DNA of 64,000 nucleotides. It comes from Deroplatys truncata (lineage: Eukaryota > Arthropoda > Insecta > Mantodea > Mantidae). Location of the stretch: contig CM060985.1 of the NCBI GenBank assembly GCA_030765065.1, forward strand, positions 7,750,001-7,814,000, given 5' to 3'. Of the stretch, positions 14,427 to 64,000 are shown in pieces. Both the position numbers and the translations under genes were made by a program. The notes below the pieces were generated by a model that had not been told where the DNA came from, ran no database searches, and saw only the letters and a list, made by a program, of their open reading frames with translations. How positions within the stretch are numbered: position 1 is the first letter of the stretch; the number at the start of each line of letters is the position of its first letter.

Positions 14427-14447
14427 ACAGTTTATCCCTTTTTCTTA

Positions 14448-19300: not shown

Positions 19301-19314
19301 GAAATGCAGCTTCT

Positions 19315-27870: not shown

Positions 27871-27903
27871 TAACTTGCCACCTGGTTTTTCTGAAGAGCA
27901 AAG

Positions 27904-41160: not shown

Positions 41161-41226
41161 CTTAAGTTTACTCACTTAACATGTTTCGGGAAACCGTTGT
41201 TCCCATCCTCAGAAGGTTAACTCGAC
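41161..41226 (-). ncRNA. Hammerhead ribozyme of PLE-2
   Basis: On the minus strand, directly after the ORF stop: core CTGAGGA, stem II GGGAA...TTCCC with a 7-base loop (CAACGGT), then GAAA, a minimal stem III (AC, two-base loop, GT), and U at the cleavage position. Stem I forms by CTT/AAG next to the core and GAGTT/AACTT further out, separated by an internal loop. Every invariant core base fits. One unpaired T lies between core and stem II. Hammerheads with very short stem III are known in Penelope-like elements. Cleavage would fall after the T at about 41178. Confidence 0.75.
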
Positions 41227-42023: not shown

Positions 42024-42030
42024 GTCAACA

Positions 42031-43660
42031 GTGGTTGTGTGCTACAAGTACCAGAAGTGGTTTGAAACAGAGTGACCATTTTAAGGCAAGATGAAAGGGA
42101 TCCCTGGTACCTTAGAGCTAAACACTTTTCACAACTTGGTCAATATAATTTAAAATATTATGATTCAGGGGGGGGGAAAAACAAGAATTTAAAACATAAT
42201 TCATTTTGTTTTTGTAATCCATGGACAAAATTTGAAGTGAATCGCAGACATGATTGTCAGATGTTGTGCAATTTGACGTGGAATAACTCATATTTAAGGT
42301 GTAAAATTATATCTATGCAGTGTTGATCTAAAATTCATGAATTGTCACATGCACAACCACACGTAAACAACTCTGTCTGTAAAGTAATAATGTAATTAAG
42401 GTTGATTTTGAAGGTGTCAATTACAGAAACTATTAATATGGCCATAAACAAGATGATAGTATTCCATTCAAACAACTAAAAGTATGAGGTTTATTTGTGA
42501 TAGTTGTACACTAATTAATTTTGCTTTGAAATTAACCGAGGTCATCGCATACATACATTATTTTATAAGTGTACTTTCTCTGTTAAGTAGGGGAAGTACT
42601 GTTTTCCACACAAATTATAATGAAGACTTCACTAGAAATACATGTTTTGAGGTCCTGTGAACTCAAAGAAAGTACAGTTACAGAAAGGTTCATATGTGAA
42701 TTATCTGTTTATTGCTTACAAAGCTTGCTTCTTGTTCATCATGATCAATAAACAGCTACAGTATGACAGTCAACATTTTGAAAAGCAGTTCACTATATGC
42801 TTGTCCCGATATTCCTTTCATCGACTGCTAAGAAACAAAAGAACAGGAAGTAATACTGAAATGGTAATTCTACCAATTTTTATCCTGGATTTGCTCAACA
42901 AAATTACAATAGAAAATTAATTTTTGTGGTCCTATTCCTTGCTTGTTTCAAAGAAAAGACTTTTACAAAAATGAAGATTGAGTCATGCAAAATGTTTTTA
43001 AATTTTGGATATTATTTCTCAAATATTGTTCTTTACAAATTAAATTTTGGGTAGTAATATTAAAAAAAGCCTAAATCCAAAACCATTGTTAATTTAAAGA
43101 AAAGATTCTATAGATCTCTACAAACATCTTCAAAGAACTTGCACTGAAAATTTGAAAGAAACTGTACAAAAATTGCATCACAAGGAATATTTAAAAGTGG
43201 CAAACATTTAAAAAATTAAGTTTCAAAACGTTATGTATTACTTTTTAAATAATTACAAAGCTTTCACATCAAAACTATCCTGGACATGTAGAGTTTTGAT
43301 TTTTGCCAGCTGGGCATGTCACGACTGCCTAGAGCGTGCTTTTAAGTTTGCTCCTAATATTGTATAAAATGTTACAGTAGATGCTGCAAATGTCATCCCC
43401 CTCCAAGAAGAAACATTCAGACTGACACGTTTTAAAGTTAAAAAACTGTAATGTTTCTGTGATATTTTACTTTAGTTCCTTCTGGCCACACCACAGGTGA
43501 GCAAGAAGGCCATACACCAGCACTTCCACTGTTGGGGGTCAAAATGTTTCTTCAGTACCTTTCTGTGACCTTGGGCTGACACAATGTGGATTTTTGATGC
43601 ACTAGTAACACATGTTTTAATTGTTTGCATGGTTGTTCATGTGAAAACAGCAGCAGCAGC
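42031..43660. other. AT-rich DNA with an R fragment
   Basis: 42566-42680 is an R end on the minus strand (TACTTTCTCTGTTAAGTAGG, GAAATACATGTTTTGAGG). No other element or gene is recognised; frames of 84-87 codons have no support. Confidence 0.4.
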
Positions 43661-45059
43661 ATTGGGTTCATTAAACCTTCGTTTACAGAGAGAAACACCT
43701 CTCTTGTTACTGGGTCACCCTGTTTTAAACAATGGACACGTGTACAGTTTGAGGTTTAATAATTTTGTTGCCTTATTAGCAGAAGCCCATTTCTGCTAAC
43801 TTTGAGAGTAAATTTGTTGACAAGGTTTTCACCAATCCTCTGTTAAACTGCAAGTTTCCACATGTACTTTTTTTGTTATGCACTGATACAGCATAATCTA
43901 TTTAACTGCAGTAACGTGAATTGCTTTTCTGGAAGGAGGTAAATTGTTCAGAAAACTGCAAACACGACGAGCGGACTCATATTTGTGGTAACATTTAAAT
44001 ATAAAAATGCATTGTCCCATCTTGGCGAACCTCAAGAACTATGTGGGGAGCTGCCGAAAGTCAGAACGCCTTGCATGCAAGCTCTGTAGAAGAGCAGACC
44101 ACAATTGTATCCTAGTTTTACAATGTCAGAGATCCCCTCCCCAATATTCAGTAAATGTTGGAAAACTCAAACTTAAAATGGTTTCCTATTTGCAGAAAAT
44201 TCAAAGAGAATACTGAGGATGTATGACATTCAAAATATACATTTTATTTGTGCCAATATTGAAAACACGTGTTACAATATTCAAAGAGCCATTTTTGATA
44301 AGATCAAAATTAACAATTTTTCATGTAAAGTGTTTTGAGGAAGAAATTTTGTGAAAATCCGTGAAATATGCCGAAGTTACGTAACAGACTTTGTTAATGC
44401 TGCTTTGACTCAGGGGACCTCAAAATGTGCGTGAAACCTTGGTATGGAAGTGTTGGAGAAAGTAAAAGTCTAATTGAAATAAATCAGTTTATCAGAGACA
44501 ATAACACTGAAAATAGTTGCGTATGGAATTGTGATCAGTCAATTTAACTATAAAATGGCTAGGGAATGGACATTAGCAAGAAAAATGTACTACCACATCG
44601 TTCAGTCCATCCATGGCACACGCATTTGTATACAGTTAAAGTGTTAATATCCATGTCAGAAACCTTATATTTGTTTTCACAAAGTAACAGGAAACTGATT
44701 TGGCCCAAATGTAGAAAACAAAATTCATGACAATCTTCCACCAAATATTTATGTGGATTGTAGTTCTAGTGGGAAAATGACTGAGAAACATTGTCAATGA
44801 TACACTGCAGTCTACTCATAAGGTTGAAAATGAAAGTCCATTTACAACTACAGGAACGTTTGGTGTGTAAATAGTTCTAAGCCCTCCTTTAGGATGTCAT
44901 TATTGATAATTCTACCAAGTTATGTGGTAATCAGAAACATATCCGTCTTCATTGTCAGGGTTTCTCTAATTCAGTGTCGGTTGTACTGCTATCTGCACTG
45001 TGTCATACATCATTGAAATTTCATTAGGTCTGGTAAATCCCTCATTTCTTAGTGTTCAA

Positions 45060-45830
45060 TATAATGTCCTTTATCAGATGATGAAGCAAGTTTCTAAGGT
45101 TGTGTATATTGTATGGAGCCAATTTTATGCCATATTCTAGAAACAGTTTTTTGAATTTGTTATGAATTTTTGGGTGGAACGTGAATCTGCTCTACCTTTC
45201 AGTGAGATATCCCCGCTGTTGAAAGCGGTGATGTCCACATTTTTTTGTGTTTTCTATTATTGTATTAGTTTGTCCACTATGTGGCTATTTTTGAACTTTT
45301 TGATATTACCTGTTTGTGTTCATTTTCTTGGAGTGGTAAGTTTATCAAGCTATGGAATATGCCATAGAGGATTATAACCATGATTTGGTCTTGCAAATTT
45401 AACAGTTTCAGGGCGTCATCTAACTGCTTCTTTGGTCATCCAGGTACCTTACCCAGGTTTAAGCATGTGTAAAAAGGATTTTATTAGACAAATCTCATAA
45501 GTCCACTGACGCCAATGAAAAAATCTAAAGTTTGCTCTAACCCTAAGTTTGTTCAATTTTCTAGTCCTATTTAACTTTTTGGCAGTTTTAATACTTCTAA
45601 CTAATCCTTATGCTATTTTTGTATTTGGCCAGTAAGAATGTTTGTGAAAAGTGATGTTACATCAAAAGAGACTAGCATTTCTTCTGGTGGTGAAGGAATA
45701 TCTTGGATTTTTTGGACTAATTCTGTCGGTTCTTTATGTTCAGGTGTTCATATGTTTCAGAAGAGTTGAACTTGTTCACTAGCCATGTGACTAATAAGTG
45801 AAACAAGAGTCATTCCGGCTGAGGTCAATG
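45060..45830 (-). pseudogene. PLE-3 relic, left arm
   Basis: Reverse complement reads as a Penelope-like RT piece: PSPPEEMLVSFDVTSLF near 45640-45700, followed by the degraded linker with the sequence shared with 61440-61640. Frames are broken. It is the inverted counterpart of the relic at 60880-61735. Confidence 0.68.
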
Positions 45831-46025
45831 GATTTTTTCGGGCGTAAAAAGCCTTAGCATGGCTTCCTTCGGAAGGGAAATAAACCTGGTGGTCACATGT
45901 CATAGGTTTATGGCATGTAAAATAACCTCAAGCCTGATAAAAGAGGCCTCTGAACATCATTTCCAGTCTTTCATGTCCAATATACAATAAGACGCAAGGA
46001 CTACAGCAGTTTAAGAGCGTCCATA
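45805..46025 (+). mobile_element. SINE-B copy 2, head missing
   Basis: Matches the SINE-B body: CCTTAGCATGGCTTCCTTCG, then GGGAAATAAACCTGGTGG and a TTTAAGAGCGTCCATAAA end. The matching place in the right arm (about 60800-60830) lacks it, so it was inserted after the arms formed, or lost from the other. Confidence 0.7.
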
Positions 46026-46263
46026 AAAAAAAACTCAATTTAATTTTAAAAGTGTTATTAATCCACCCACAATCTCTATATGTTAAAAAGTTTTTCTGTA
46101 TATAATCACTTCCAATAACTTATAAGCATAAAAATCGGCATGTAATTTTTTAGATATTGATTAATCACTTTTGATATGCTAATACAAGACACACCTTACA
46201 TCAAATGATTTATTATAAATGTGCAGAAATGTTATTTTGAGCTTATGAAAACCAATATAAAAA

Positions 46264-47120
46264 AAAATCTGATGTGTTACACTCACATGACTTTCTCTAC
46301 TCTTGTACAAACTATTTTTACAAACGCTTATTCTCCATATGCTTCATGTTAATGGAGATATCGAGATGTCAATCTTATTGGTAATTTTCATGTAGATGCA
46401 AGGGGAATATGGTAGGTTTTAAGCGATAGTCAAATATTTTAACGCTGATTGCTATGTGGCGCATTCCATTCTCTTTGCATGTCCAGGACATAAAAAAAAT
46501 GAATAACGAATTTGAGAAAAAGTATAAGTATTGGAAAATTTAAGGGAATAACAAGCAATATCTCGCAAACGGTTCACTCAACAAAAGAAATGTATATGAC
46601 ATAAATTGTGTATTTTAACGCGATCTACATTTTTCGTGTAGTAAAATTTTGTCTATCTCTTATGGTTTACCAGTTATGAAAAAGTCGTTCATAATGAAGA
46701 ATACTTTTGGAGACATTCCCAGAAAATTCGAGATATACATTTTATTTGTCATGACAATATCTTAAACATATGATATTTTAATCAAAATCGTTAGAGCCGT
46801 TTTAGAGAAAATTAAAATTTTCGAAAAATGTTCCATGTAAAGGGTAATCTGGGGTGGGGGGATTTTCTTGAAAACCTTCGTGTCGCATCTCTGAAAGATA
46901 CTGAACCTAAATACCAAGTTTGGTGTTTAACCGACTCTTCGTTTTTGAGTTATGCTGTTCACAGACACACAGACAGACACACACACGGACATGTTTCCAA
47001 AAATGCTTTTTTTGGATTCAGTGAGTCTCAAAACATGTATTTCCGGTGAAATCTCGGTATCGAAATTTTGGGTGGAATACAATACTTCCCCTACTTACTA
47101 TACGTAGTAGAGAAAGTAAA
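46264..47120 (+). repeat. Repeat family R, best-preserved copy
   Basis: About 857 bp from GTTACACTCACATGACTTTC to TATACGTAGTAGAGAAAGT. Landmarks in order: AGCGATAGTCAAATATTTTA, TAGTAAAATTTTGTCTATCTC, CCCAGAAAATTCGAGATATA, TTCCATGTAAAGGG, GGTGTTTAACCGACTCTT, CACAGACACACAGACAGACA, TATTTCCGGTGAAATCTCGG. No coding frame. ACTTTCTCTA occurs near both ends in opposite orientation. A reverse copy in the other arm is 58905-59537. Confidence 0.8.
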
Positions 47121-47410
47121 AATGCTGTGCAGATATTAATTTTAATTAGTGTAGACAAAAACTGTTCTGTAGTCTCGTATGAGTTGGCAGCCAGAGCTCT
47201 TACTCCTGAGCAATCGGATAAAAGAACATGGTAGTGATTCAGGTTCTTACAATTACAATGAAAGTAAGCCCTTACCTCATCACAACAGAGGTTGAAGATT
47301 TCCTTCTCCTGCATCTCTGGCAACTTGTCTTCAGTGCACTCCAGACCAGCTCCCAAACTAATTTCTCTTCTGATAGTTTCATGCACCTCTTCTCACATTT
47401 GGAGGTTTAA
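47121..47410 (-). other. Exon-like block, left arm (possible gene fragment)
   Basis: The minus strand has an open frame REISLGAGLECTEDKLPEMQ..., with GATGAG/GTAAGGGC, a good splice-donor match, at about 47270-47285. The right-arm partner (58590-58905) differs at only a few positions and by an in-frame 3-bp indel. Beyond the donor the frame stays open into HYHVLLSDCSGVRALAANSY. The amino-acid composition is mixed and unlike the AT-rich neighbours. I do not recognise the protein. It could be a captured or duplicated host exon. Confidence 0.4.
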
Positions 47411-49027
47411 CCTATATACTTTGAGATCTGGAGACCATACAAGCCATAATCCTGTTTTTAAAAGTTTTCTAAATAATCACTTTACTTGTACAGTGTAACA
47501 GTCTTGCTGAAAGTAACCAGACCAAGAATAAATATCAATCAGTTCACAAGTTAACGCATTCCGAACACCATACCCCAATTTTTTCATCTTAGTATTTCCT
47601 ACATTAAATCAAGTTTCTTTGAGCTTCAATACTACCTAACCTAAGTCAAAACATAGCCAAGTAGTTGAAACTGTGCTTCATTGGAGAAGTTTACCACATC
47701 TAGTTCTTAACATTTCTATAAAAACACTGATCATGTCTGGTTTAAATTTACAGAATTCTTTAGCTGAACTCATTCAAATCACAGTTTCCTTTGAAAACTG
47801 TCACAGAGGCATTTGAGGAGAATGTTTTAATTATTTTGTCTTAATTTCTCCTGCGTTAAGTACGCACTGCTTCACTTCTTATTGAGAATTGAACCATTTC
47901 CCACAGCTTCTCTGCTTGGAGCAGGCACACCTAGAATAATGAAATGTGTATTAAATAAAAAACACTGGTAACTAACATGTAAATACTAAAATCCCTTCAG
48001 AACTTGATGCAAACCCCTGGGGAATGAAGAAACAAGGTTTCAAGATGTGCTGCGGTATGCCAAGCACTTGTGTGTGTGTGTGTTATTGAATGTTTCTACT
48101 TTTATCAACATTACCTATTGAAAATATTTAATTGCAAATGAATTACTTAATATTTTCAAATAATTGTACTAACATTTTCAGCATCTTCTTTATATTCAAA
48201 ATTCTCCTAAAAATTAACTTTGGTACACATAGCATTTTGAATAATAAAATGTTGCTCGAGTGATTTTCTTCATATCCTTTGCCTGGCATTCTTGAATGCT
48301 GTCCAACCAAAGTACAATTTGGAATTCAATTGATTTTTCATGTTTGTGTTATGCTCTTTACTGACACACAAGTACACATAAATTTTTTTTCTAAAATGCA
48401 CTTCTGTATTAAAAATTCAGGAGACTTAAAACATGAATATTTGGTTAAATCTTGATATCAAATTTTTTGGCTTAAATGCTGTACTTCCTTCAACATAATT
48501 ATCTAACATTAGAAAAATATGATAACACATTATGAACTTTTGTGTTGTGTAAGATGACTTTTGTAGGTGCAAGATGAAATATTTTCAAGTAATCCCCCCA
48601 CCCACCTTAGTCCAAAGTACTTTATATGGGAAAAGTTTCTTAATTTTTTTTAAAAAATACTTAAATAAATGCTACTAACAATTTTGATCATCTCATAAAC
48701 TTGAGATATTAACATGATGAATAAAGCATATCTGTTAAGCGTTATGCAATTTGGAAACTATGAAACATATATATGTACTTATTTAAATTCAGCTGTTTTG
48801 TAGCATCAACCTTCTGAGATATTTGCTTTTATATCTTTAAATTATTCCACGTTATCAAATTGTTTTCTTGTGAGCTTGTAACTGGTATATCAGTTTACAA
48901 GTAGTTATTATGATATATACATATTAATGGTGATCAGCACCAAAAGGATAGGGAAATAACATTTCATATGAATAACTATGAAATAGTATTGAGAAGAAAA
49001 AGTCATGTGACTGTTGCACATCAGAAT

Positions 49028-50205
49028 TTGGGTCGAATTCATAGTTGTCACTTATTTCAACGAAGTCCTTAAGCAGCAATTTTCAATACACAGACCCTAC
49101 TCATTCAGGCGAATAAGGAAATGCTTATTCATATAAGGAAGCTCCAACATCCATTTATATGCAATATGTAGAGCCAATGGCATCTTGCATCAACTGCCTA
49201 CAACAGGGGTTAATGATAATAGCAATTTTGTGGAGTATATGGAATTTCATAACAAAATTGTACTATGCATTAATAACAAATTCACTTGAAATGCATAGAG
49301 ATGCTGAAATTAAGAAGTGATATTGGTTTACCAAACCACTGTTGTAATAATCTAATGCCTCTGCTAAACAACGTAACCTTAATAAACAGGATTACTTTAA
49401 AAGATAATGTATAGAATCTCAGTGCCATGACACTATCCATGTTTTCTGTTCAGATGCTTTCCCATTTATGTTGTCCAAAGTCCTTAGTTCCCTAGAAAAC
49501 GAGATTCTGCTGTACTTATCAAATCCTTAAAATAAAATGCAGAAATATTTCTGCAATAATTAAAGTACATCTCTGCAATGTTTTTCTTGATCAAATTGCC
49601 TATTTTGCATAATTACCGCCACTGCAATGGATCATTTAACAAGTCACATATCTTTACCACTAATTTGTAAATATACATTGGATTATCAAAATCTTGAACA
49701 GAGGTTTATTAATTTTGCATGTAAAACCACTGTTAAAGCCAAACATTGTAAGTTATTGGGTACTTTTGCTTCTCTGATTACTGCTAGATGGTGTAGTAAT
49801 TGCATTTGTGATTTGCATATACACAGGTGCATGTTGTAAATACTTCTAGCTACTGACACTTTAATAATCTTAATATCTCAGCACCAACTCTTTCTACTTG
49901 CTGAAATGTTTTCCCTTTGGCATGTTTTCGTCCTAAGTAAGGGAACTGTATAACTATTACTACAAACCCTTAACTAAATTTACAATCTACTTGATTTTAA
50001 ATGAAAGTTAACTAATCAATAAATGTACCATTTAAAACTCGCAAACTTCTGCCACATGTGCTTTGGAAATAAGTAAGCTTTTATGGCTGAGTATATTAGT
50101 ACCGTCTATGTATACCAAATGGTAATAAGCATTTCCTTATCACAAGGAATACTTATTGCTTAAGAATCTCCTTTTTACATAAGCAATGACTATGAATTCA
50201 AATCC
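49028..50205. mobile_element. Left-arm-only element with ~95-bp inverted ends
   Basis: The left end (TGGGTCGAATTCATAG...AATAAGGAAATGCTTATT, 49028-49130) is repeated inverted at 50115-50205 (AATAAGCATTTCCTTATC...CTATGAATTCAAATCC). The right arm of the giant repeat lacks the whole 1.18 kb at the matching place (about 55400-55420). No transposase is present and the target duplication is unclear; likely a non-autonomous DNA transposon. Confidence 0.65.
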
Positions 50206-50224
50206 TAAGTGCAAAATCAGTGTG

Positions 50225-50625
50225 GACTTACAGTAACATTGTATTGTCTGTTTACATCCTTCCCTATCCTCTCTCTGCACCTCTGTTAGCTGTAGATATA
50301 GCATTATGTATTATATGTGTATAATTGTATTATCCATTTACAACCCTCTCCCTTTTATAATAAAAATCCTTTTCCTATCCTCTCCCTGCACCTCTGTTAG
50401 CTGTAGATGTAGCATTATGTATTACTATATGTGTATAATTGTATTATCCATTTACAACCCCCTCCCTGCACCTCTGTTAGCTTAGATATAGTGTTATGTA
50501 TCCATTTATTGTGTAAATTTGTTATCCATTTATAGCCATCTTCCTTTTACAATAAAAAATCCCCTCCCTATCTTCTCCCTGCACTCTCCTTCGTGTACCC
50601 ATCATACGTTTTCATCATTGTGTTG
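50225..50625 (-). repeat. 114-bp minisatellite, left-arm copy
   Basis: Three to four units with CCTATCCTCTCCCTGCACCT, GTTAGCTGTAGATGTAG and ATTATCCATTTACAACCC. It is the reverse complement of the array at 54640-55330, with fewer and more diverged units. Confidence 0.85.
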
Positions 50626-51260
50626 TGTGTTTATTTCCCTCCCGCTTCCCTATGCCTCTATAAACTTTTGATGGACTGTTTGTTACATCTGCAATTTTTA
50701 GGGGGTGATTTCTAAAAGATGCAGAAAACAAAATACAGCGGAATCTCAGTGATGTCAGAACATCTTTAATGGACTTTAACTAACTCCCATGCAAGAAAAT
50801 AATTTTAATTGCCTTTGCAGTTTAAATAAAGGGTTTAATAATCACTTAATGTTGACAAAATTAATCAGATTACTTAAATGTTGTTCTAATGCTAAAATCT
50901 TCTGTCATTTACACTGAATATTATGTACCAAAATTTATCTGGCTTGATTGAAAGTGATTCCAAATACTTATTTTTAACCTAATTGCAGGGTGGGAAGGGA
51001 AGGCTGTTTACAGGTCTTTCTCATTCATTCAAACTAATTGTAATAGGAACGTGCCTTTACATCATTTAATGCTGAGCCCATCTTAAATTGTTCACGTTTC
51101 CCCATTCAATAAAAAATGTATGAATTCATTGTATTTTGAACTTCTTCAGAAATCCCCTCTAAAATAAAGGTAAAAATAAAAGACATATGTGGTAACACAT
51201 CATAAATAGCCAAATACTGCCATTTAACAGTGGCAACATACGGTAACTGGTTAAACACAC

Positions 51261-51469
51261 TAGAAGGCAGTGCAAGAATAACGAAACATAAAAATAAATT
51301 CCTGCACCATATGAACAGTCAAACAAAGATTAGTAAGTCATGGTAAGTAGCCAAACACAAAAAAAAATAGATTCCTACACCATATTTATAGCCAAACAAT
51401 AATTGGTACCACATGAATAGCCAAAAAAAAAAAAAAAAAACTTGCCCCACTTTAGATCAGGCACACTAG
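51261..51469. other. Left edge of the repeat centre
   Basis: Short, poorly ordered similarities to 53560-53690 in reverse orientation (CAAACAATAATTGG, ATAGCCAAACA), and a run of 18 A at 51424-51441. A CTAGAAGGCAG motif at about 51262 resembles the core of the 62-bp unit next to it. Confidence 0.5.
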
Positions 51470-53245
51470 ATGGCAGTACATAACCAAAAGGTTAGAAATT
51501 GCAGCCTCACTTTTGCCCAAGCACACTAGGCAGTACATGAAGAAAAAGGTTGGATAGTGTAGCCTTAGTTTTGGGCAATCACGCTAGATGGCAGTACAGT
51601 TCAAAAAAGGTTGGATAGTGTAGCCTTAGTTTTGAACAATCACGCTAGATGGCAGTACATGTCAAAAAGTTGGAGACTTAGTTTTGGGCAATCACATTAG
51701 ATGGCAGTACATGCCAAAAAAAGGTTAGATAGTGTAGCCTCAGTTTTGAGCAAGCACGCTAGATGGCAGTAAAGTTCAAAAAAGGTTGGATAGTGTAGCC
51801 TTAGTTTTGGGAAAGCACGCTAGATGGCAGTACATGTCAAAAAGGGTCAGATAGTGTAGCCTTAGTTTTGGGCAAGCACGCTAGATGGCAGTACAGTTCA
51901 AAAAGGTTGGATAGTGTAGCCTTAGTTTTGGGAAAGCACCCTAGATGGCAGTACAGTTCAAAAAAAGGTCAGATAGTGCAGCCTTAGTTTTGGACAAGCA
52001 CGCTAGATGGCAGTACAGTTCAAAAAAAGGTCAGATAGTGCAGCCTTAGTTTTGGACAAGCACGCTAGATGGCAGTACAGTTCAAAAAAAGGTTGGATAG
52101 TGTAGCCTTAGTTTTGGGAAAGCACGCTAGATGGCAGTACAGTTCAAAAAAAGGTTGGATAGTGTAGCCTTAGTTTTGGACAAGCACGCTAGATGGCAGT
52201 ACAGTTCAAAAAAAGGTTGGATAGTGTAGCCTTAGTTTTGGACAAGCACGCTAGATGGCAGTACAGTTCAAAAAAAGGTCGGATAGTGTAGCCTTAGTTT
52301 TGGGCAATCACGCTAGATGGCAGTACAGTTCAAAAAGGTTGGATAGTGTAGCCTTAGTTTTGGGCAAGCACCCTAGATGGCAGTACAGTTCAAAAAAAGG
52401 TCAGATAGTGCAGCCTTAGTTTTGGACAAGCACGCTAGATGGCAGTACAGTTCAAAAAAAAGGTTGGATAGTGTAGCCTTAGTTTTGGGCAATCACGCTA
52501 GATGGCAGTACAGTTCAAAAAGGTTGGATAGTGTAGCCTTAGTTTTGGGCAAGCACCCTAGATGGCAGTACAGTTCAAAAAAAGGTCAGATAGTGCAGCC
52601 TTAGTTTTGGACAAGCACGCTAGATGGCAGTACAGTTCAAAAAAAAGGTTGGATAGTGTAGCCTTAGTTTTGGGAAAGCACGCTAGATGGCAGTACAGTT
52701 CAAAAAAAGGTTGGATAGTGTAGCCTTAGTTTTGGACAAGCACGCTAGATGGCAGTACAGTTCAAAAAAAGGTCAGATAGTGCAGCCTTAGTTTTGGACA
52801 AGCACCCTAGATGGCAGTACAGTTCAAAAAAAGGTCAGATAGTGCAGCCTTAGTTTTGGACAAGCACGCTAGATGGCAGTACAGTTCAAAAAAAGGTCAG
52901 ATAGTGCAGCCTTAGTTTTGGACAAGCACGCTAGATGGCAGTACAGATCAAAAAAAGGTTGGATAGTGTAGCCTTAGTTTTGGGAAAGCACGCTAGATGG
53001 CAGTACATGTCAAAAAGGGTCAGATAGTGTAGCCTTAGTTTTGGGCAAGCACACTAGATGGCAGTACATGTCAAAAAAAAAAGGTTAGATAGTATAGCCT
53101 TAGTTTTGGGCAAGCACACTAGATGGCAGTACAGTTCAAAAAAGGTTGGATATTGTAACCTTAGGTTTGGGCAATCACACTAGATGGCAGTACATGACAA
53201 AAAAAAGTTAGAAATTGTTGCCCCAGCACACTAGATGGCATTACA
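51470..53245 (+). repeat. 62-bp minisatellite with CTCF-like motif
   Basis: About 27-28 direct units of 61-64 bp: GGTTGGATAGTGTAGCCTTA, GTTTTGGGCAAGCACGC, TAGATGGCAGTACAGTTC and an A run of variable length. Each unit holds CTAGATGGCAG, which fits all 11 positions of the core SYAGRKGGCRS of the animal CTCF motif. The outer units (for example 51465 and 53050) have CACACTAGATGGCAG, a closer match to the longer motif. It fills the centre of the giant inverted repeat. The short frame at 52377-52604 is a by-product. Confidence 0.93.
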
Positions 53246-53689
53246 TAAAAAATATAATTTTGACAGAAAAACACTACACTGAAGATATGTATATGCTGCA
53301 CCAATTCAGTCAAGCACACAAATATATAAAATGACATAAAGCAAACAACCAGTAACCATAGAATATTGTATAACTGAAACACCCAGTATATATAATGCTT
53401 TTGAAACATGTTATATACAGAGTAATTAAACTTTGTGTATTAAACAATTGAGGCATTGGAAATGTAAAATTGCTCATAAAAATGCAATTGAAGGCATCCT
53501 TTGGAACAGCCTGCACATATATCACACGCCACCAATAGTTTCACAATTTATCATCTACTGCAAGTCACTGATTAGCTAGTAATATGGTGCTGCCATCTAC
53601 TGTGTTTATTACTTACCATGTTGCCTCCAATAGCTGCACAATTTATCTTTTACCGCCATTTATTGTTTGGCTGTTTACCATATACTTCC
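53246..53689. other. Right edge of the repeat centre
   Basis: AT-rich DNA with no gene. A further motif, in the other orientation, GCTGCCATCTACTGTGT, lies at about 53589 and fits the same CTCF-like core. Frames of 71-82 codons on the minus strand are unsupported. Confidence 0.4.
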
Positions 53690-54639
53690 ACAACTTTTTG
53701 CTAATAATTAAGATTACCACATAATAGTACTTGTTGGTTATTTATGAAGTGTTGCCACATAATGACGGTTTGCTTCCAAAATGTTCAATTTTGAGTTTTC
53801 TACGCATCCTGGGCCAGAATCTAGTCACCTATCACTTCCAAAAAGTATCTAACTGATAAGTATAAAATGGGGGCTCAAACAATGATGCATCACAGTAACT
53901 ATGTGAAAACTAATATTACGGGTCGGTTCCAAATGTGGCTTAAAACACATAGAAAAGTTACAATTTTGTAAATGGATACATTTGGAACCAAGCCATTGAT
54001 ATCTTTTATTTTTACCTACAATATTTCAGAGGGGATTTCTGAAGAAAGAAAAAACTTGTATGAATGCGTTCACTTATTTTCATTTCTTGAATAGAAGCAT
54101 GAAGTATTTAAGATGGATTTAGCAGTACATAATTTAAAGGGACATTCCTATTAAAATTAGTTTCTCCGAATGAATGAGAAAGACCGTAAACTGCCCCCTC
54201 CCAATTAGATTAAAAATCAGTACCTATTCAGATTCACTTTCAATCTAGCCCAGATAAATTTAATGAACTTTCCTACATAAAATTTAGTCTAAATGACAAA
54301 AGGAATCAGATTACTTAATTGTGGTCCTGATGTAAAAAGTTGAAGTGATAATTCTAATTGCTTTTGCGGTCCAAATAAAGGGTTTAATAATTTTCTTGCA
54401 TGGGTGTTAATTAAATTCCATTAAAGATATTCTAACATCAGAGATGAAACAAGTTAATGACACAGATCAACTGAGATTCCACTGTATTTTGTTTTCTGCT
54501 CTAAAACACTGAATCTTTCAGAAATCACCCCTAAAAATTGCAGATGTAACTGCTTCGTCTACACTTACATTTTCATCATTGTATTGTGCGTTTATATACG
54601 TCCTGCTTACCTATACCTCTGTAAACTTACGATGGAGGG

Positions 54640-55335
54640 TGCAGGGAGAGGATAGGGAAGGGATTTTTATTATAAAAGGGAGAGGGTTGTAAATTGATAA
54701 TACAATTAACAAAATACATGGATACATAACACTACATCTACTACTTACAGAGCTGCAGGGAGAGGACGGGAGGGGATTTTTATTGTAAAATGCAGAGGGT
54801 TGTAAATAGATAACCCAATTAACAAAATACATGAATACATAACACTACATCTACAGCTAACAGAGAGGATAGGGAACAGATTTTTATTGTAAAAGGGAGA
54901 GGGTTGTAAATGGATAATACAATTAACAAAATACATGAATACATAACACTACGTCTACAGCTAACAGAGGTCCACAGAGAGGATAGGGAACAGACTTTTA
55001 TTGTAAAAGGGAGAGGGTTGTAAATGGATAATACAATTAACAAAATACATGAATACATAACACTATGTCTACAGCTAACAGAGGTCCAGGGAGAGGATAG
55101 AGAACAGATTTTTATTGTAAAAGGGAGAGGGTTGTAAATGGATAATAATTTAACAAAATACATGAATACATAACAGTACGTCTACAGCTAACAGAGGTCC
55201 ACAGAGAGGATAGGGAACAGATTTTTATTGTAAAAGGGAGAGGGTTGTAAATGGATAACACAATTGTGAACATATACTAATACATAACACTACATCTACA
55301 GCTTAGTGGTGCAGAGAGAAAATAGGGAAGGTACA
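54640..55335 (+). repeat. 114-bp minisatellite, right-arm copy
   Basis: About six units of 113-114 bp with GGGAGAGGGTTGTAAATGG, ATACAATTAACAAAATACATG, CATAACACTACGTCTACAG and AGAGAGGATAGGGAACAG. Unit starts at 54867, 54981, 55095 and 55208 give the period. The minus-strand frames at 54611-55163 are a consequence of the repeat and are not genes. Confidence 0.93.
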
Positions 55336-55749
55336 TTTAAGGGATGTAAACAGACAATACGATGGTATAGTAAGCCCATACTCATTTTCGTACCCTATGA
55401 TGTAATTATGAAGGTATTCTGATGTACAACAGTCACATGACTTTCTCTTACCAATACTATTTCATAGCTATTCATATGAAATGATATTTTCCTATCCTTT
55501 TTGTGCTGATCACCATTAATATGTATATGTCATAACAACTACTTATATATTGATGTGCCAGTTACAAGAAAACAATTTGATAGCACAGAATAATTTAAAC
55601 ATACAAAAGCAAATATTTCAGAAGGTTGATGCTACTAAACAGCTGGATTTAAATGAATATTTTAACATAAGCTTTATGCAATTTGGAAACTATGAAACAT
55701 AACAGGTATGCTTTATTCATCATGTTAATATCTCAAGCTTATGACATCA

Positions 55750-56085
55750 AATTTGGAAAGGTAGAATCATGCAACTGAAAAGTTCAATGCCATCGCCAGA
55801 ATTTGAACCACGGATCTCCCAGTTTCTGTCCCGTTGGTCTAACCACTGAGCTACCATAGCAACATACCGGCACGACACTAAATACCCCAGCTGATTTGCA
55901 TTTTTCCCAGTAAACGTCAAATTGTATTGAAATGGCATACCCCAATGGTGACATATAATGCTATAAGTGGTTTAAGTCCCAGGCTTTATAGTTTTGACCA
56001 CTACTAGGCAAATTAACAGAATTAATTGTTCTTCCATACAAGCCTTGTCCAACACACGCTTGTGTGGAAGAACAATTAAAAAATG
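55750..56085 (-). mobile_element. tRNA-like unit (SINE-C) with terminal hairpin, right arm only
   Basis: 55788-55860 on the minus strand is 73 nt long and tRNA-like: A box TAGCTCAGTGGT, B box GGTTCAAATTC, weakly pairing ends. Next to it, at 56022-56079, is a 22-bp inverted repeat. The left arm lacks this stretch at the matching place, between CTTGAGAT (about 48700) and the GATCAT block (about 48688). It may be one SINE or two neighbouring insertions. Confidence 0.55.
56022..56079. repeat. 22-bp hairpin
   Basis: TTAATTGTTCTTCCATACAAGC (arm 56022-56043) pairs with the inverted copy at 56058-56079, 21 of 22 bases, with a 14-base loop. Confidence 0.85.
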
Positions 56086-56401
56086 TTACTAAAAATGTTG
56101 ATCATGGAATTAAAGTATTTTTTTAAAAAAAACGAGGAAAATTTTCTCATATAAAGGCCTGTTTGGATTGAGGCAGGGGGGGGATTCCCCAAGAATCTTT
56201 CATCTTGAACCCATAAAAGTCATCTGGCACAACACAACACAAAAGGTCATTCTGTTTTATGTTATTTATCTAATGCTAGATAATTATGTTGAAGGAAGTA
56301 CAGCATTTGAGCCAAAAAATTTTATATCACGATTTAACCAGATATTCATTCATGCTTTTGAATTTTTAAAACAGAAGTGCATTTTAGAAAAATTTTATGA
56401 G

Positions 56402-57284
56402 TTACGCTCACATGACTTTCTCTACTCTTGTACAAACTATTTTTACAAACTCTTATTCTCCATCTATTTCATATTAATTGAGATAAACATCTGCGGAAAC
56501 GATCTTTTGAGAATTACATTTTACACATAGCGACCAGTTCTAAAAATATTTGACTATCGCTTAAGGCGTACTATGTTCCCCTTGTTTTGTAATTGCAAGG
56601 GCAATATAGAAATGCAGTAGCCTTTAAGCATCGACATATATCTTAATACCTGGTTGCTAGGTGCAGCACCATTCTCTTTGGCACACATTAATACTCTTTG
56701 CATTCCAAGACAAAAAAATGAATAATGAATTCCCATTTGAGAAAATAAGTATTGAAAAATTTAAGGGAATAACAAGCAATATCTGAAAATGGTTCACTCA
56801 ACAAAAAATATGTATATGACAAATTGTGTATTTTAATGTGATCTACAGTTTTTGTGTAGTAAAATTTTGTCTATCTCTTATGGTTTACCAGTTATGCAAA
56901 AGACATTCACAATGAAGAATACTTTTGGAGACATGCCCAGAAAATTCAAGATATATATTTTATTTGTCATGAAAATATCTTAAACATATGATATTTTAAT
57001 CAAAATGCTCCATGTAAAGGCTAATATGGGGTGGGGGGGATTTTCTTGAAAACCTTCGCGTCGCATCTCTGCAAGATTCTGAACCTAAATACCAAGTTTG
57101 GTGTTTATCCAACTGTTTGTTTCTGAGTTATGCTGTTCACAGACACACACACGGACATGTTTCCAAAAATGCTTTTTTTGGATTCAGGGGGTCTCAAAAC
57201 ATATATTTCCGGTGAAATCTCGGTATCGAATTTTTGGGTGGAATACAATACTTCCCCTACTTACTATACGTAATAGAGAAAGTA
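56402..57284 (+). repeat. Repeat family R copy with empty site in the other arm
   Basis: Starts GTTACGCTCACATGACTTTC and ends TATACGTAATAGAGAAAGT. The flank AAAATTTTATG is present on both sides. The left arm has the same flanks without the element (about 48395-48415: CATTTTAGAAAAAAAATTTATG in reverse complement), giving a filled/empty pair that sets the ends and shows that R is mobile. Confidence 0.8.
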
Positions 57285-58589
57285 AAAAATTTTATGTGTA
57301 CTTGTCTGTCAGTGAAGAGCATAACACAAACACGAATGCTGTCCAACTAAAGTAAAATTTGGAATTCAGTTAATTTTTCAAGAAAGCCAGACAAAGAATA
57401 TGAAGAAAATCACTCCAGCTCTTTTAGCTTTTGACAAAACTGCCTCAAATTATTTTCATAAAAACTTATATGTTGGGGATGTAAATATGTACAGGGTATA
57501 ACCGATACAGATTATGCTTTAAGATAATCCATCAGTAAATCTGGGGGATTCACCTTCTACATTCAATTTTTTTAGCTTACGGCACTGAGTTAAGCAAGGT
57601 GTTAAACTGAAGTCCATTTTTCTCAGTTCCCCATCCTGCTGCAACATTTTAATATTCAAAATGCTATGCATACCAAGTTACATTTTTAGGAGAACTGAAT
57701 ATAAAGAAGATGCTGAAAATTTTAGTACAATTATTTGAAAATATTAAGTAATGCATTTGCAATTAAATATTTTCCATAGGTAATGTTGGTAAAAGTAGAA
57801 ACATTCAATAACACTTATATAAGTGCTTGGCATACCGCAGCACATCTTGAAACCTTGTTTCTTCATTCCCTAGGGGTTTGCATCAAGTTCTGAAGGGATT
57901 TTAGTGTTTACATGTTAGTTACCAGTGTTTTTGATTTTATGTTTTAATAATGCCATGAGGTAACCTAACTACACATTTCATTGTTCTAGGTGTACCTGCT
58001 CCAAGCAGAGAAGCGGTTCGATTCTCAATAAGAAGTGAAGCAGTGCGTACTTACTCAGGAGAAAACATGACAAAATAATTAAAACATTCTCCTGAAACGT
58101 CTCTGCAACAATTTTCAAAGGAAACTGTGGTTTCAATGATTTTATTGTGGTAAGCTAACGGATTCTGAAAATTTAAACCATACATGATCAATCTTCTAGG
58201 AGTGTTAAGGATGATGAAATAATTGATCTAGATGTAGTAAAGTTCTCCAATGACGCACAGTTTCAATTACTTGGCTATGTTTTTACATAGGACAGGTTGT
58301 ATTGAAGCTCAAAGAAAATCCATTCAGTGCAGGAAATGCTATGATGAAAACATTGGGGGTTGGTTGGGCCAGTTAATTCATTCCTTTAACGTTCTGAATT
58401 TGTAGTATCTGTAAAGTATATTGGTCCCACTATAATGTATGCATTATCTTTTGAAATGATTGATATTTAATCTTGGTCTGGATATTTTCAGCAAGACTGT
58501 TACACTGTACATATAACCAAAGTCATTAAATTTCATTCAGAACATTTTTAAAAGTAGGGTTATGACTTGCATGGTCTCTACCTAGGTCG

Positions 58590-58905
58590 ATCTCAAAGTG
58601 TATAGGTTAAACCTCCAAATGTGAGAAGAGGTGCATGAAAATATCAGAAGAGAAATTAGTTTGGGAGCTGGTCTGGACTGCACTGAAGACAAGTTGCCAG
58701 AGATGCAGGAGAAGGAAATCTTCAACTGTTGTGATGAGGTAAGGGCTTACTTTCATTGTAATTGTGAGAACCTGAATCACTACCATGTTCTTTTATCCGA
58801 TTGCTCAGGAGTAAGAGCTCTGGCTGCCAACTCATACGAGACTACAGAACAGTTTTTGTCTACACTAATTAAAATGAATGTCTGCACAGCAGTTTTTACT
58901 TTCTC
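58590..58905 (+). other. Exon-like block, right arm (possible gene fragment)
   Basis: Open frame REISLGAGLDCTEDKLPEMQ... with a GTG, not ATG, as its first start-like codon and a stop just upstream at 58622-58624, so if it is an exon its beginning is elsewhere. GATGAG/GTAAGGGC, a good splice-donor match, occurs at 58734-58747. The block ends against the R copy at 58905. The left-arm twin is almost the same. I do not recognise the protein. Confidence 0.4.
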
Positions 58906-59537
58906 TACTACGTATAGTAAGTAGGGGAAGTATTGCATTCCACCCAAAAATTTGATACTGAGGTTTCAGGAAATACATGTTTTGAGGTGCACTGAATGCA
59001 TATAAAGCATTTTTGGAAACATGTCCGTGTTTGTGTCTGTGAAGAGCATAACTCAGAAACGAACAGTCGGATAAACACCAGACTTGGTATTTAGGTTCAG
59101 TATCTTCCAGAGATGCGACACAAATGTCTCCAAAGTATTCTTCATTGTGAACGACTTTTGTATAACTGGTAAAACATAAGAGATAGACAAAATTTTACTA
59201 CACAAAAAATGTAGATCGCATTAAAATATACAATTTATGTTATATAAATTTTTTTTGTTGAGTGAACCTTTTTCGAGATATTGCTTGTTATTCCTATTTG
59301 TTATTCATTTTTTTATGTCCCGGTAATGCAAAGAGAATGGAATACTCCACATAGCAACCAGCTCTTAAAATATTTGACTATAGCTTAAATACTACCATAT
59401 TCCCCTTGCATCTACAAGAAAGTTAGCAATTAAATTAACATCTCGATTAACATGAAGCATATGGAGAATAAGCGTTTGCAAAAATAGTTTGCACAAGAAT
59501 AGAGAAAGTCATGTGAGTGTAACACATCAGATTTTCA
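58905..59537 (-). repeat. Repeat family R, inverted partner of 46264-47120
   Basis: Reverse complement of the left-arm copy, sharing its flanks on both sides, so it belonged to the segment before duplication. It is about 220 bp shorter because of an internal deletion around 59120. Confidence 0.78.
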
Positions 59538-59539
59538 CT

Positions 59540-60650
59540 TTCTCTGCCATGTACATAGTAGGTATGCACCCAACCCAAATAATTAATACTGAGATTTCAC
59601 TGGAAATACAAGTTTTGAGGGCCTAATATCCAAAAATAGTACTTTTAGAAAAACGTCCATGTCTATGTCTGTGAACGGAGTAACTCAAAAAGAAAAAGTC
59701 AGATAAATACCAAACTTCAAGTTCAGTATCTTCCAAAGATGTGTCACAAAGATTTAAAAAAATAATTTCTCCACCCCCAAATACCCTTTACATATAAGAT
59801 TTTGCAAGATTCTTTTATTTTTTCAAAAATTACTATTTTGATTAAAATACCATATATTAAATATATTTATATAGCAAATAAAATGTATATTTTCTGGCAA
59901 TAGTCTGTGTAGTTCTATTCATTCGGAAGGAATTTTGTATAATCTTATATACCTAAATTAATTAAGATGCTCTTTAACTGCTGTGGTCCTTAGTTTCCCA
60001 TTCTAAACTGGACATGTAATTTTGCTCAAGAGGCCTCTTTATGACGCTTGAGGTTCTTTTATGTGCTGTAAATCTATGTCACGGGCCCACCAGCTTTACT
60101 TCCCTTCCAAAGGAAGCCATGCTAAGGATTTTACGCCCCAAAAAAAACCATCACCCTCTGCCGGGTTTGAACACATGACCTCAGGAACTAGAGGCTAGCA
60201 TGGTAACCACTACACCATGGAGGACGACCATCTTACACCTGATAAACGTTAAGCAATAGATGAAAATGTATTAAACAAAAATTTTAGATCTCTTTCAAAC
60301 ACACAGTTTACTTCAAGTAACTTTTTTGTGGCACAAGCCATTTCTGAGATATCCGTTATTAATCGTTTGAATTGTTAAATACTTTTGCCGAAGTCCTGTC
60401 AACATTTCCTCATGATTGCATGGAAAAGGTATGGAATTTTAAGGCCAGCATATAGCTTCCAGTTCTTGAACATTTGACTATCACTATTCCCTTTATATTC
60501 ATAACAAAATGTGTAAATTTGCTATTTCTGCAAATGTTTATCTCAATCGTAATGAAATAAACAAAAAAATAAGCTTTCGTATGAATAGCTCCCATACCCA
60601 CTAATAAATGATAAGAGGGTGGAGAAAGTCATGTGAATGTAACACAGATT
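59540..60650 (-). repeat. Repeat family R copy interrupted by SINE-B, right arm only
   Basis: Runs from ACTTTCTCTGCCATGTACAT (59546) to AGTCATGTGAATGTAACAC (60645) on the minus strand, cut at about 59950 by SINE-B copy 3 and resuming with ACCTGATAAACGTTAAGC. It lies end to end with the R copy at 58905-59537 and is absent from the left arm. Confidence 0.75.
59968..60236 (-). mobile_element. SINE-B copy 3 (tRNA-derived), most complete
   Basis: Minus strand: head TCCATGGTGTAGTGGTTACC (A-box region) and B box TGTTCAAACCC, then CCTTAGCATGGCTTCCTTTG and a body ending TTAAAGAGCATC. Flanks ATCTTATATACCT and ATCTTACACCT may be a worn target-site duplication. Nested in an R copy. Confidence 0.78.
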
Positions 60651-60879
60651 TTTTTCATAATGGTTTTCATAAGTTCAAAATAACACTTTTGTAGAATTAT
60701 AATAAATTATTTGGTATAAGGAGTGTATTGTATTAGCATATCAAAAGTGATTAATCTCAAACATTACATGCTAAATTGCTGGAAGTGATTATAAACACTC
60801 ATGTTTACTAGCCTTGAGGCTAATGAGTGAAAAGCTCAACTCTTTTGGAACATATTATAAAAGCCTGAGCGTAAAGATT

Positions 60880-61735
60880 TCACAGAACTAGTTAACAAAA
60901 ATCCTAGATATTTGGATACCACCAGAAGAAATCCTAGTCTCTTTTGATGTTACATCACTTTTCACAAACATTCCTACTGGCCAAATACTAAAACTGCTAA
61001 AGGATTGGTTGTTAGAATTATTAAAAAGAAATAAAATTACTGGTAAAACTGATAAGGTTATAGTCTTTCAAGTAAAACACATTGTCAGACTGTTTGAAAT
61101 TTAAGAGATTTGCCTAATAAACTCCTTTTGACACATGTTTAAATTCAGGATGACATTTTTGCCAGGGTACCCAAGAAGAATTACATGACGTCCTGAAACT
61201 TAAATTTGCAAGATCAAATCATAAAATTCATCTTGAAGATACAAAAAGATGGGTGACAAGCTTTTCTATATCTCAAAATTATGAGATACCATAAGAGAAA
61301 TGAATTTTGGATATACAGAAAAGCAACCCATGTGGACAACTACATCAAAATTGGTAATTACAATCCTTATATCACATCAACATTTCACAGATTCGTATAC
61401 TTGCCTCTCCAAGAAAATGAATACAAGGAGGTAATATCAATAAATTCAGAAAGTAACCACACAGAACAGATTCAGCACACACATAGTGGACAAACTAATA
61501 CAATAGTAGAAAACACAGAAAAGGTGGGCATCACCGCTCTCAACAGCAGAGTTATTTCACCAAACAGATATAGCAGATACACGTACCAACCAAAAATTCT
61601 TAATGTATTCAATCAACTGTTTCTGATTATGGCATATAATTGGCTTCATACAATGAACATGACACTAAGAACGGAGGGATTTACCAGATTTATTGTGAAG
61701 AATGCCATGAAATATACACAGTCTGACCATAAGTT
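60880..61735 (+). pseudogene. PLE-3 relic, right arm: RT and GIY-YIG remnants
   Basis: Plus strand: PPEEILVSFDVTSLFTNIPT (about 60925-60985) is a hallmark of Penelope-like RT. After a damaged middle, FWIYRKATHVDNYIK (61308-61352) matches FGIYRKPTHSTNYIK of PLE-2, and after a linker GFTRF...CEECHEIYT (about 61676-61725) is the start of a GIY-YIG domain with its cysteine pair. Frames shift several times. The catalytic RT region is largely deleted. The mariner relic follows at once. Confidence 0.75.
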
Positions 61736-62580
61736 CTGATACAAACTTTTGACCTTTGTTGCACCAGGTGTTGGGCAATTAGATAAAATGCCTGCAACCT
61801 TATACTTTGAGTTCAAATGCAGCCAAGTGAACACGCTAGTTAAGTTAGTCATGAACTGGGGAGATTACGAAAATCATGTTGCAGTGAGTGTCATGAAATT
61901 GCCACTTGATATTTTTGAGGCACTTAAGAAGTTGAAAATGAGCAGGATGTTAGTATTCCACACCAGAAGCTGGTACAATTGCTGACCGACCAAGATCAGG
62001 ACGTCCAGGACAGTGGTGAAAGCAGCAGCAGTTCATATTAGGAGAAATCCAATGCGGAAGCAAACATTAACATCTCCAGGAGATCAATGTCCAATAGCTC
62101 AGAAAAACCTTGGGCTGAAGGCTTATTGCTGGAGTACTGCACATAAAACTTAAGCAGCTGAGAGAGTCGAAATACAAATGTCTACTTTAATTTGCGCCAA
62201 CAACAGTTGCAGAAAAATCCTTTTTATGGATGAAAACATTTTCACAACTGAACAGAGCTACAACCGCCAGTGACCAAGTGTATGCCAGGACTTTAGAAGC
62301 TCATGGGTGGGTCCCATAGATCCAAAGGGGTCACGGTCCTGCTTTTGTGATGGTTTGGTGGGCAGTAAGCTACAATGATGTCACAACAACCAGAAACAAC
62401 CCTCCTTCAAATTGTGGTGAAACATTTGAACACCACTTTGTGGACCTTCACTTAAGTAAACAGACAGTTTTGGTCAAGAGAAGATGACATTAAACAGGAA
62501 ATAAAGCTTTTAAAACACCAGCAGAGAAGTCACAGTATGGGAAAATATCCACATCACCAAAACTGCACATAGAGTAATGA
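61711..62580 (+). pseudogene. Mariner/Tc1-type transposase relic, right arm only
   Basis: Starts with ACAGTCTGACCATAAGTTCT, like a mariner terminal repeat; the other end is not found. Pieces in order: IFEALKKLKMSRMLVFHT (helix-turn-helix part), DRPRSGRPG (the linker motif), KTLGLKAY, KILFMDENIFTTEQSYN (first catalytic aspartate block), and VMVWWAVSYNDVTT (second block). Many frameshifts. The left arm passes from the PLE-3 end to the next shared segment (about 45035) without it, so it was inserted after duplication. It is a different mariner from the one at 36568. Confidence 0.72.
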
Positions 62581-64000
62581 ATTTTGAAATTTCAATGATA
62601 AATGACACATTGAAGTTCCTCTTCCAGACACCAGTGGACCTACACAATGGAGACGAATGTCTTTGTAACATGTTCCGAGTGTAAACTTAGTAAGAGATAC
62701 TAAAAGTGCAAGCAATCCACTCACTGTTTGGTGATACTCATTAAAATAACTTAAGTTCCATTTATTTTATACTTTGCGTAAGTTAATCAAAATGAAACTG
62801 GATTCTTAATTTTTCAGATACACTGCCTTAAACCAGTAATGCTATATACCATTTTGAGGTTTCATTAATAACACTTTGATCCATCTTTAGCTGTAATGTT
62901 ACATTAATTAATATTGCAAGATGTCTTCAGGTTGATCCAAGTTGTAAGGCTTACACAACCATTCACCATCTGGTGTTGAAATATGTTAAACTAATATAAA
63001 CAACCCTTAAAACTGTGGTCACTACAATTTTACTTTCTGCGCCACTTCCCTATGACATTCTATACCAATATTTCACTGAAAATCTACATTTTGAGCTTTC
63101 TTGAGTCAAATAATGCAGCATTCCCAAAGTATGTTATTTAAGTTATATTTCACAAAATTTCCCCTACTTAAAAAAAAAGAAAGAAACCTCTAACTGTAAA
63201 AAGCGTTACATAAAAAATAGCTCTTTGAATATCTTAACAATTTTTTTTGATACTGACATGAATAAACTGTATATCTTGAATATTGTGTAAAATATCATAT
63301 ATCCTGACATTCATATTGAATTTTCTGCAAATAGGAAACCAGTACACATATTTCTCAGTTATGCAATTTAAATTAATGCAAAATTAAAAGTTGGAACATT
63401 GACCACTCCAGAAATACTTGCCATTTTAAGTGTGAATTTTCCAATATTTTATTAAGGGTACTCAATACTGGGGGGGGGGGATCTCCAGCATTGTAAAACC
63501 AGGATCCAATTGTGGTCCTGCTCTTCTGCAGAGCTTTCATGTTAAAATGATATGCATGCAATGCGTTTGATTCTCAGCAGCTGTTAACAGTGCTCCCCAG
63601 TCTTTCCCCTACAGTTCTTGAATGTCAGTAATTGAGGTGCACCAGTTGACTCTAGAGCAGTGCATCTTCATGTGTAAATGTTACCACAAATACGAGTCAG
63701 CTCATTGTGTTTGCAGTTTCCTGAATAATTTACCAGCTTCTAGAAAAGCCATTTACAAAACTGCAAATTCATTTGATTATGCTATATCACTGCATAGCAG
63801 GAACGTACAGTTTTAACATGAAATTGATGCAAACCTTGAATGTCCATCAACAAATTCACTCCCAAAATTAGCAAACAAAACGGTTCTGCTAATTATTTAC
63901 ACCTCAAACTGTATAAGCCCATTGTTTAAAACAGGGTGACCCAGTAACAAAAGTGCCTTTTTTTTTCTCTCTCTGTAAATGAAGGTTTAATGGACTCAAT

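Follow-up and report, generated by a model that had tools for sequence, protein, structure and literature searches.

Do palindromes remain unstable once their arms have diverged? The large palindromes that we met in the literature are near-identical structures of sex chromosomes (PMC8981503, in the portion available to us), and the genome of the mantis Deroplatys truncata offers a worn one as a test case. It lies in a 64,000-nucleotide stretch of contig CM060985.1 (C11:7750001-7814000, hereafter the window) that an earlier sequence-only reading had singled out for a giant inverted repeat. Positions are those of the window, and numbers past 64000 carry the same numbering into the right flank.

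Here, we delimit this palindrome, search the genome (4.29 Gb, 818 contigs) for its relatives, and compare the copies. Our results make it highly probable that the structure is an old inverted segmental duplication, that the region was later copied between two chromosomes, and that the copy on C11 was recently caught up in a tandem array. The processes are known and their combination is unusual; it is not described in the titles and abstract openings that we searched, although it may exist elsewhere.

A degenerate palindrome with colinear arms

Self-comparison by blastn returned inverted blocks whose order is reversed, running from 43661-44181/64000-63421 at the outside to 50260-51186/54990-53999 at the inside, in agreement with the sequence-only reading. 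That reading had also suspected that the arms continue beyond its edges, and once flanks were added a more sensitive comparison indeed placed the outer ends at 40041 and 65964. The arms are thus ~11-12 kb long, colinear and degenerate, and they enclose an unpaired centre of ~2.8 kb, where 2.4 kb had been proposed.

The best colinear chain joins 7 blocks covering 7,392 bp of the left arm, with a score of 2552. None of 42 controls exceeded 758: the right arm reversed without complementing scored 0, the right arm in direct orientation scored 560 (1,478 bp, consisting of dispersed repeats), and 40 random 14.8-kb segments, part of which overlap one another, gave a top score of 758 and a median of 218, the longest alignment among the ten best being 1,811 bp. 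Across 12 blocks picked from these matches (5,872 aligned sites), left and right arms are 79.0% identical, with a range by block of 69%-93%.

Part of the matching between arms comes from dispersed repeats (46-47k and 56-60k) with further matches at 28-33k and 36-39k, the orientation being direct in some and inverted in others. The arms include low-copy sequence as well: all matches to 50590-51224 fall within the palindrome family (13 of 13 candidates scored), and for 47118-48400 the strong matches belong to that family while matches elsewhere are weak and short (best 40 of 210 candidates).

A recent tandem triplication with its edge inside the left arm

The C11 palindrome has been drawn into a tandem triplication that is recent. 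Sequence from 44829 onward repeats at 153141 and 261988, giving three units in direct head-to-tail order with start-to-start spacings of 108.3 kb (units 1-2) and 108.8 kb (units 2-3). A probe located 40 kb into the unit (85-88k) is present in all three, spaced 111.0 and ~118 kb, and the wider spacing indicates that unit 3 has extra DNA ahead of the probe position. Units 1 and 2 are 98.2% identical overall across 91,834 aligned bases; 37 of the 51 aligned 2-kb bins reach at least 99.0%, and the lowest bins are those of the palindrome and of tandem-repeat stretches at ~101-108k. We found no unit sequence at C11:8116001-8126000 or 8224001-8234000, which match through dispersed repeats only. On its right side, unit 3 should thus end somewhere from C11:8066879 to 8116001, barring a large insertion at the latter.

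Because the left edge of the unit falls inside the left arm, the palindrome predates the array. No extended homology links the flank to the end of the unit, and there is therefore no sign of long-repeat recombination at the junction. Two dispersed elements of ~0.86 kb distinguish unit 1, one in its left arm (Table 1) and a second at ~146634-147494, the latter with an empty site in unit 2 (units 1 and 2 compared); both were probably inserted after the tandem duplication. Within the tandem-repeat region 99910-107453, a TATG array of ~2 kb was detected in unit 1 only, and a 77-bp array numbers ~46 copies in unit 1 against 51 in the second unit.

The units differ most within the palindrome. Units 1 and 2 are 99.3% identical at 44829-46266, ~98% at 47130-47694 and 48400-50058, 92.2% at 47694-48250 (a loss due partly to microinversion) and 91.6% at 50590-51224; the figure falls to 79% in the inner right arm, with microinversion accounting for much of the loss, and the centre arrays match at ~70%. 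Units 2 and 3, by comparison, are 99.4-100% alike in core bins outside the array, and 98.0-99.6% alike in the adjoining left arm. There are accordingly two core forms, A in unit 1 and B in the other two units. Form B may have been homogenised, form A may derive from a different allele, or centres may change in bursts.

One alternative to the exchange of an older core is that the interior differs since palindrome centres mutate fast, which we regard as possible and somewhat short of an even chance. Divergence between units 1 and 2 does climb toward the centre, from 0.7% through ~2% to 8.4% (with 47694-48250 an outlier at 7.8%), microinversions cluster in the interior, and the spacers of primate X palindromes are likewise unstable according to the consulted portion of PMC8981503. 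The cores of units 2 and 3, however, are more alike than the left arm beside them, and given this similarity a constantly high rate would require recent homogenisation as well.

The mostly ≥99% identity of the units, known here from the assembly, lies within the range of allelic difference, so that the triplication (the palindrome aside) could be an assembly artefact such as haplotypes placed in tandem. We consider this unlikely: the copy number is three, insertions specific to a unit face clean empty sites, the palindrome comes in two core forms, and the 264 kb of window and right flank contain no N.

Older copies on a second contig

Further copies of the palindrome lie on contig C15. The outer-arm segment 42289-44828 recurs there as an inverted pair (C15:5255140-5258658 and 5283869-5287453), with mid-arm sequence on both strands between the two. 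The inner-arm segment 50590-51224 occurs on both strands at C15 5.270/5.274, 7.595/7.597 and 8.723/8.726 Mb, as it does in the three C11 units. Both strands are therefore represented at 6 of the 7 places that hold the inner arm, and inner-arm copies are confined to C11 and C15 (13/13 candidates scored for both statements); the copies found lie within the first 10.4 Mb of their contigs. The C15 pieces are mostly 64-88% identical to those on C11. Such diverged copies at other loci support the sequence-only reading that the palindrome itself is an old structure and no artefact of assembly.

DNA outside the arms is shared too. Left-flank sequence stands beside the palindrome, in colinear order, at 3/3 C15 loci (best 40 of 15,680 candidates), and has no inverted counterpart past the right arm within the stretch compared. 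This shared flank favours segmental duplication over a discrete mobile element, which the palindrome does not look like. Two of the C15 loci, C15:7594556-7612733 and 8708652-8726173, carry palindrome and flank copies in mirror orientation 1.13 Mb apart, which suggests a large inverted duplication on C15. Flank and palindrome common to two contigs and such mirror images fit interchromosomal segmental duplications, from which the family differs in its age and in that most copies show paired inverted arms.

The segmental inverted duplication proposed by the sequence-only reading is supported by these findings; another of its suggestions, a fold-back transposon, is not. A giant element of this type, with long terminal inverted repeats and internal tandem repeats, would have travelled whole between the two contigs. 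Long arms with tandem repeats within them and in the centre resemble Tetris (PMC4079207) and Galileo, and the presence of both strands at most places also speaks for it. In the consulted part of that source, Tetris has inverted repeats of up to 1,735 bp and its complete copies carry target-site duplications. Here, by contrast, flanking DNA is common to all three C15 loci, inner-arm copies are restricted to two contigs and not dispersed through the genome, the arm ends have no evident terminus (target-site duplications at C15 were not searched for), and the arm open reading frames (ORFs) that we tested encode no transposase. We accordingly hold this origin to be improbable.

Several points weigh against the account of a copied palindromic region. 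The copy at C11 10.355 Mb is on a single strand only; flank copies elsewhere may be missed, since only the best 40 of the 15,680 candidates were scored; the C15 copies are known as match coordinates, save for 1,551 bases of one arm; and the right-flank query is a dispersed repeat that says nothing on C15. The unit probe at 85-88k is swamped by dispersed repeats and is equally uninformative on that contig.

Under the favoured account, the palindrome would have formed once, as an inverted duplication, and the region carrying it would then have been copied between C11 and C15. Ordinary drift, insertion of dispersed elements, occasional short arm-to-arm conversion, microinversions and turnover of the centre would have continued to change it. 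Recently, the C11 copy would have been caught in a direct tandem duplication of ~108 kb with one breakpoint inside the left arm, and it is now present in three units.

Microinversions in the palindrome interior

A k-mer scan of units 1 and 2 (92,649 aligned bases) yielded six inverted rows that represent four events, every one of which lies in the palindrome interior. The same scan of units 2 and 3 (14,526 bases) found no microinversion. Two single-k-mer rows from this first scanning (45652, 50609) were not counted as events. In a stricter scan, which kept clusters of at least 4 k-mers, the unit-to-unit palindrome alignment contained 4 events in 5,462 bp (503 substitutions). The rest of the unit contained none in 74,566 bp (946 substitutions), although this control starts at 59592 and takes in 6.4 kb at the outer end of the right arm, and nine repeat-pair controls, 4 of which use elements sited within the arms, contained none in 12,531 bp (1,019 substitutions). 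Per base, the excess in the palindrome has p ~2e-5.

Measured per substitution, the excess is weaker, since divergence too is higher in the interior (p = 0.015 when compared with the rest of the unit; 0.0018 once the repeat pairs are included). This tempers the case, as do the outer arms, with no microinversion in 2,192 bp and 491 substitutions, and the comparison of left and right inner arms of unit 2, with none in 823 bp and 115 substitutions.

With arm-to-arm and C11-to-C15 comparisons included, the count rises to eight separate events, 26-88 bp long. Each segment matches its counterpart in place as a reverse complement, with identities from 58/68 to 30/30, and near the ends of each stands an inverted repeat of 5-11 bp, perfect or imperfect, whose chance level was not computed. 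The inversion at 47823-47852 appears to be derived in units 2 and 3, as the unit 1 left arm, the unit 1 right arm and C15 agree on the other orientation. Template switching or break repair at such short inverted repeats may have produced these events. Between human and chimpanzee, 59 definite microinversions of 17-33 nt have been reported, each with flanking inverted repeats (PMC8755829, in the part seen). The segments described here, with their candidate flanking repeats, resemble those cases; unlike them, they are packed into a few kilobases of one palindrome family and not scattered over a genome.

We tentatively raise a broader reading, which we think less likely than its negation: degenerate palindromes may stay mutation hotspots after near-identity is lost, the inner arms and centre of this family continuing to acquire microinversions and fresh centre arrays through template switching at close range. 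A persisting hotspot of this kind would explain why recent, 99%-identical units already have two cores.

Possible limited exchange between arms

The sequence-only reading had also raised the possibility that the palindrome is kept by gene conversion. Whole-arm conversion is not seen, the arms having drifted to 79%; two short patches are most simply read as conversion tracts, and to this small extent the proposal stands. Across putative tract i, left and right arms are 95-100% alike per 60-bp bin. C11 and C15 are 81-83% identical in this region for plus-arm pieces and 74-75% for the minus arm (47230-47423, lowered by a microinversion there), making constraint a poor explanation of the similarity. 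For putative tract ii, we used one C15 arm as outgroup over 47554-48255 and scored events that split left from right arms: there were 20 among 23 informative events at 47560-47856 and 0 among 18 at 47896-48255 (Fisher 7.5e-9 for a boundary set post hoc). These counts omit three edge events (47553-47555) and events within the microinversion 47823-47853.

Two considerations argue against conversion: the limits of the tracts were set after the data had been inspected, and our first look, made without an outgroup, revealed no clear tract. A cluster of sites that had been taken for conversion in that first look was resolved as microinversions.

It is very improbable that the arms are kept for a hairpin RNA precursor or for a gene of the host. 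Left and right are 98% alike in one 260-bp stretch, which has a site resembling the splice-donor consensus, but units 2 and 3 carry a 2-bp shift that breaks the frame of ORF 47021-47392(-), the five differences between the arms are not biased by codon position, C15 is just 74-83% identical there, neither this ORF nor 58625-58921(+) has a Pfam match, and a search of the window gave no tRNA and nothing in Rfam at gathering score. Protein-coding arms were rejected on the broken frame, the lack of codon bias and the Pfam results, and no host gene was found among the arm ORFs tested.

Palindromes of the primate type combine arm identity >99%, arm-to-arm conversion and unstable spacers (PMC8981503, in the part consulted). 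The mantis palindrome is like those of mammalian sex chromosomes in its long inverted arms, unstable spacer and apparent conversion. It differs in that the near-identity is absent, mean identity being 79%, and in that exchange is confined to short converted-looking patches, the two putative tracts. Recent tandem copies together with older copies on another chromosome provide internal clocks, and so microinversion, spacer turnover and arm exchange can be polarised, and their numbers compared with those in the flanks.

Features and neighbouring sequence

Table 1. Coordinates of the palindrome, its tandem unit and associated features (window numbering)
Feature	Position	Strand	Remarks
Left flank outside palindrome	37514-38551	+	C15 matches run from 37514 to 38205, 38335 and 38551
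Outer left arm	40041-40376 and 42289-44828	+	Not part of tandem unit; right-arm partners 65964-65591 and 65537-62585; blocks 69-81% identical
Insertion specific to left arm, 1.9 kb	40377-42288		Gap in arm alignment
Left edge of tandem unit	44829		Within old left arm; junction without extended homology
Inner left arm	45005-51192	+	Sensitive comparison, chain, block identities
Dispersed element, ~0.86 kb	46256-47123		Confined to left arm of unit 1; units 2 and 3 have an empty site
Putative conversion tract i	47121-47423		Partner ~58590-58893; ~300 bp
Microinversion, 30 bp	47823-47852		Inverted in units 2 and 3
Putative conversion tract ii	47896-48255		Partner ~57641-58010; at least 360 bp; right arm groups with left arms
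Microinversion between arms, 47 bp	48294-48328		Right-arm copy 57334-57368 inverted relative to left arm and C15
Microinversion between arms, 34 bp	48742-48769		Partner 55674-55701
Dispersed repeat, left arm	49027-50210		No equivalent at corresponding right-arm place
Short tandem repeats, left arm	50256-50587	+	Shorter counterpart of right-arm 114-bp repeats
Unpaired centre	51193-53992		62-bp tandem array 51677-53209; self-matches 51444-53252
Right arm	53993-64000, onward to 65964	-	Sensitive comparison, chain
Microinversion, 26 bp	54057-54082		Right arm, unit 1 vs unit 2
Microinversion, best segment 46 bp	54294-54391		Right arm, unit 1 vs unit 2; two inverted rows, one event
Microinversion, 88 bp with flanks	54564-54629		Right arm, unit 1 vs unit 2; two inverted rows, one event
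114-bp tandem repeats, ~6 copies	54638-55329	-	Right arm
Right-arm stretch absent from units 2 and 3	55400-59591	-	4.2-kb deletion

The left-arm insertion contains an ORF, 41220-42041(-), with a GIY-YIG domain (Pfam PF01541, E 1.6e-6), which may be Penelope-like. Segment 49027-49850 of the dispersed repeat in the left arm found >30 copies, 79-85% identical, among its best 40 candidates, and this dispersed nature explains extra inverted copies near 69k and 177k. Outside the arms, the palindrome is flanked by a ~1.3-kb repeat whose two copies (32967-34262 and 66750-68033) are 97% alike and in opposite orientations.

ORF 61257-61736(+) in the right arm has a single Pfam match, below the cut-off. 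Ten ORFs of the unit were scanned; six have no domain and four have one, of Myb/SANT-like type, of HTH/transposase type (two), of mariner type (Transposase_1) or, below cut-off, DDE_3. Farther left in the window, ORF 10059-10517 has a DUF659 match below the curated cut-off, a domain that we presume to be associated with hAT-type transposases. A copy of a non-LTR retrotransposon, in which endonuclease and reverse transcriptase domains are recognised, occupies ~13320-18100, and a second copy, 92% alike over 5,761 aligned bases, extends from the left flank into the window start. Tandem arrays fill 19314-27879, first with an 84-bp unit (19314-20565) and then with a 47/99-bp unit, the 47-bp sequence being present in ~147 copies (20680-27879).

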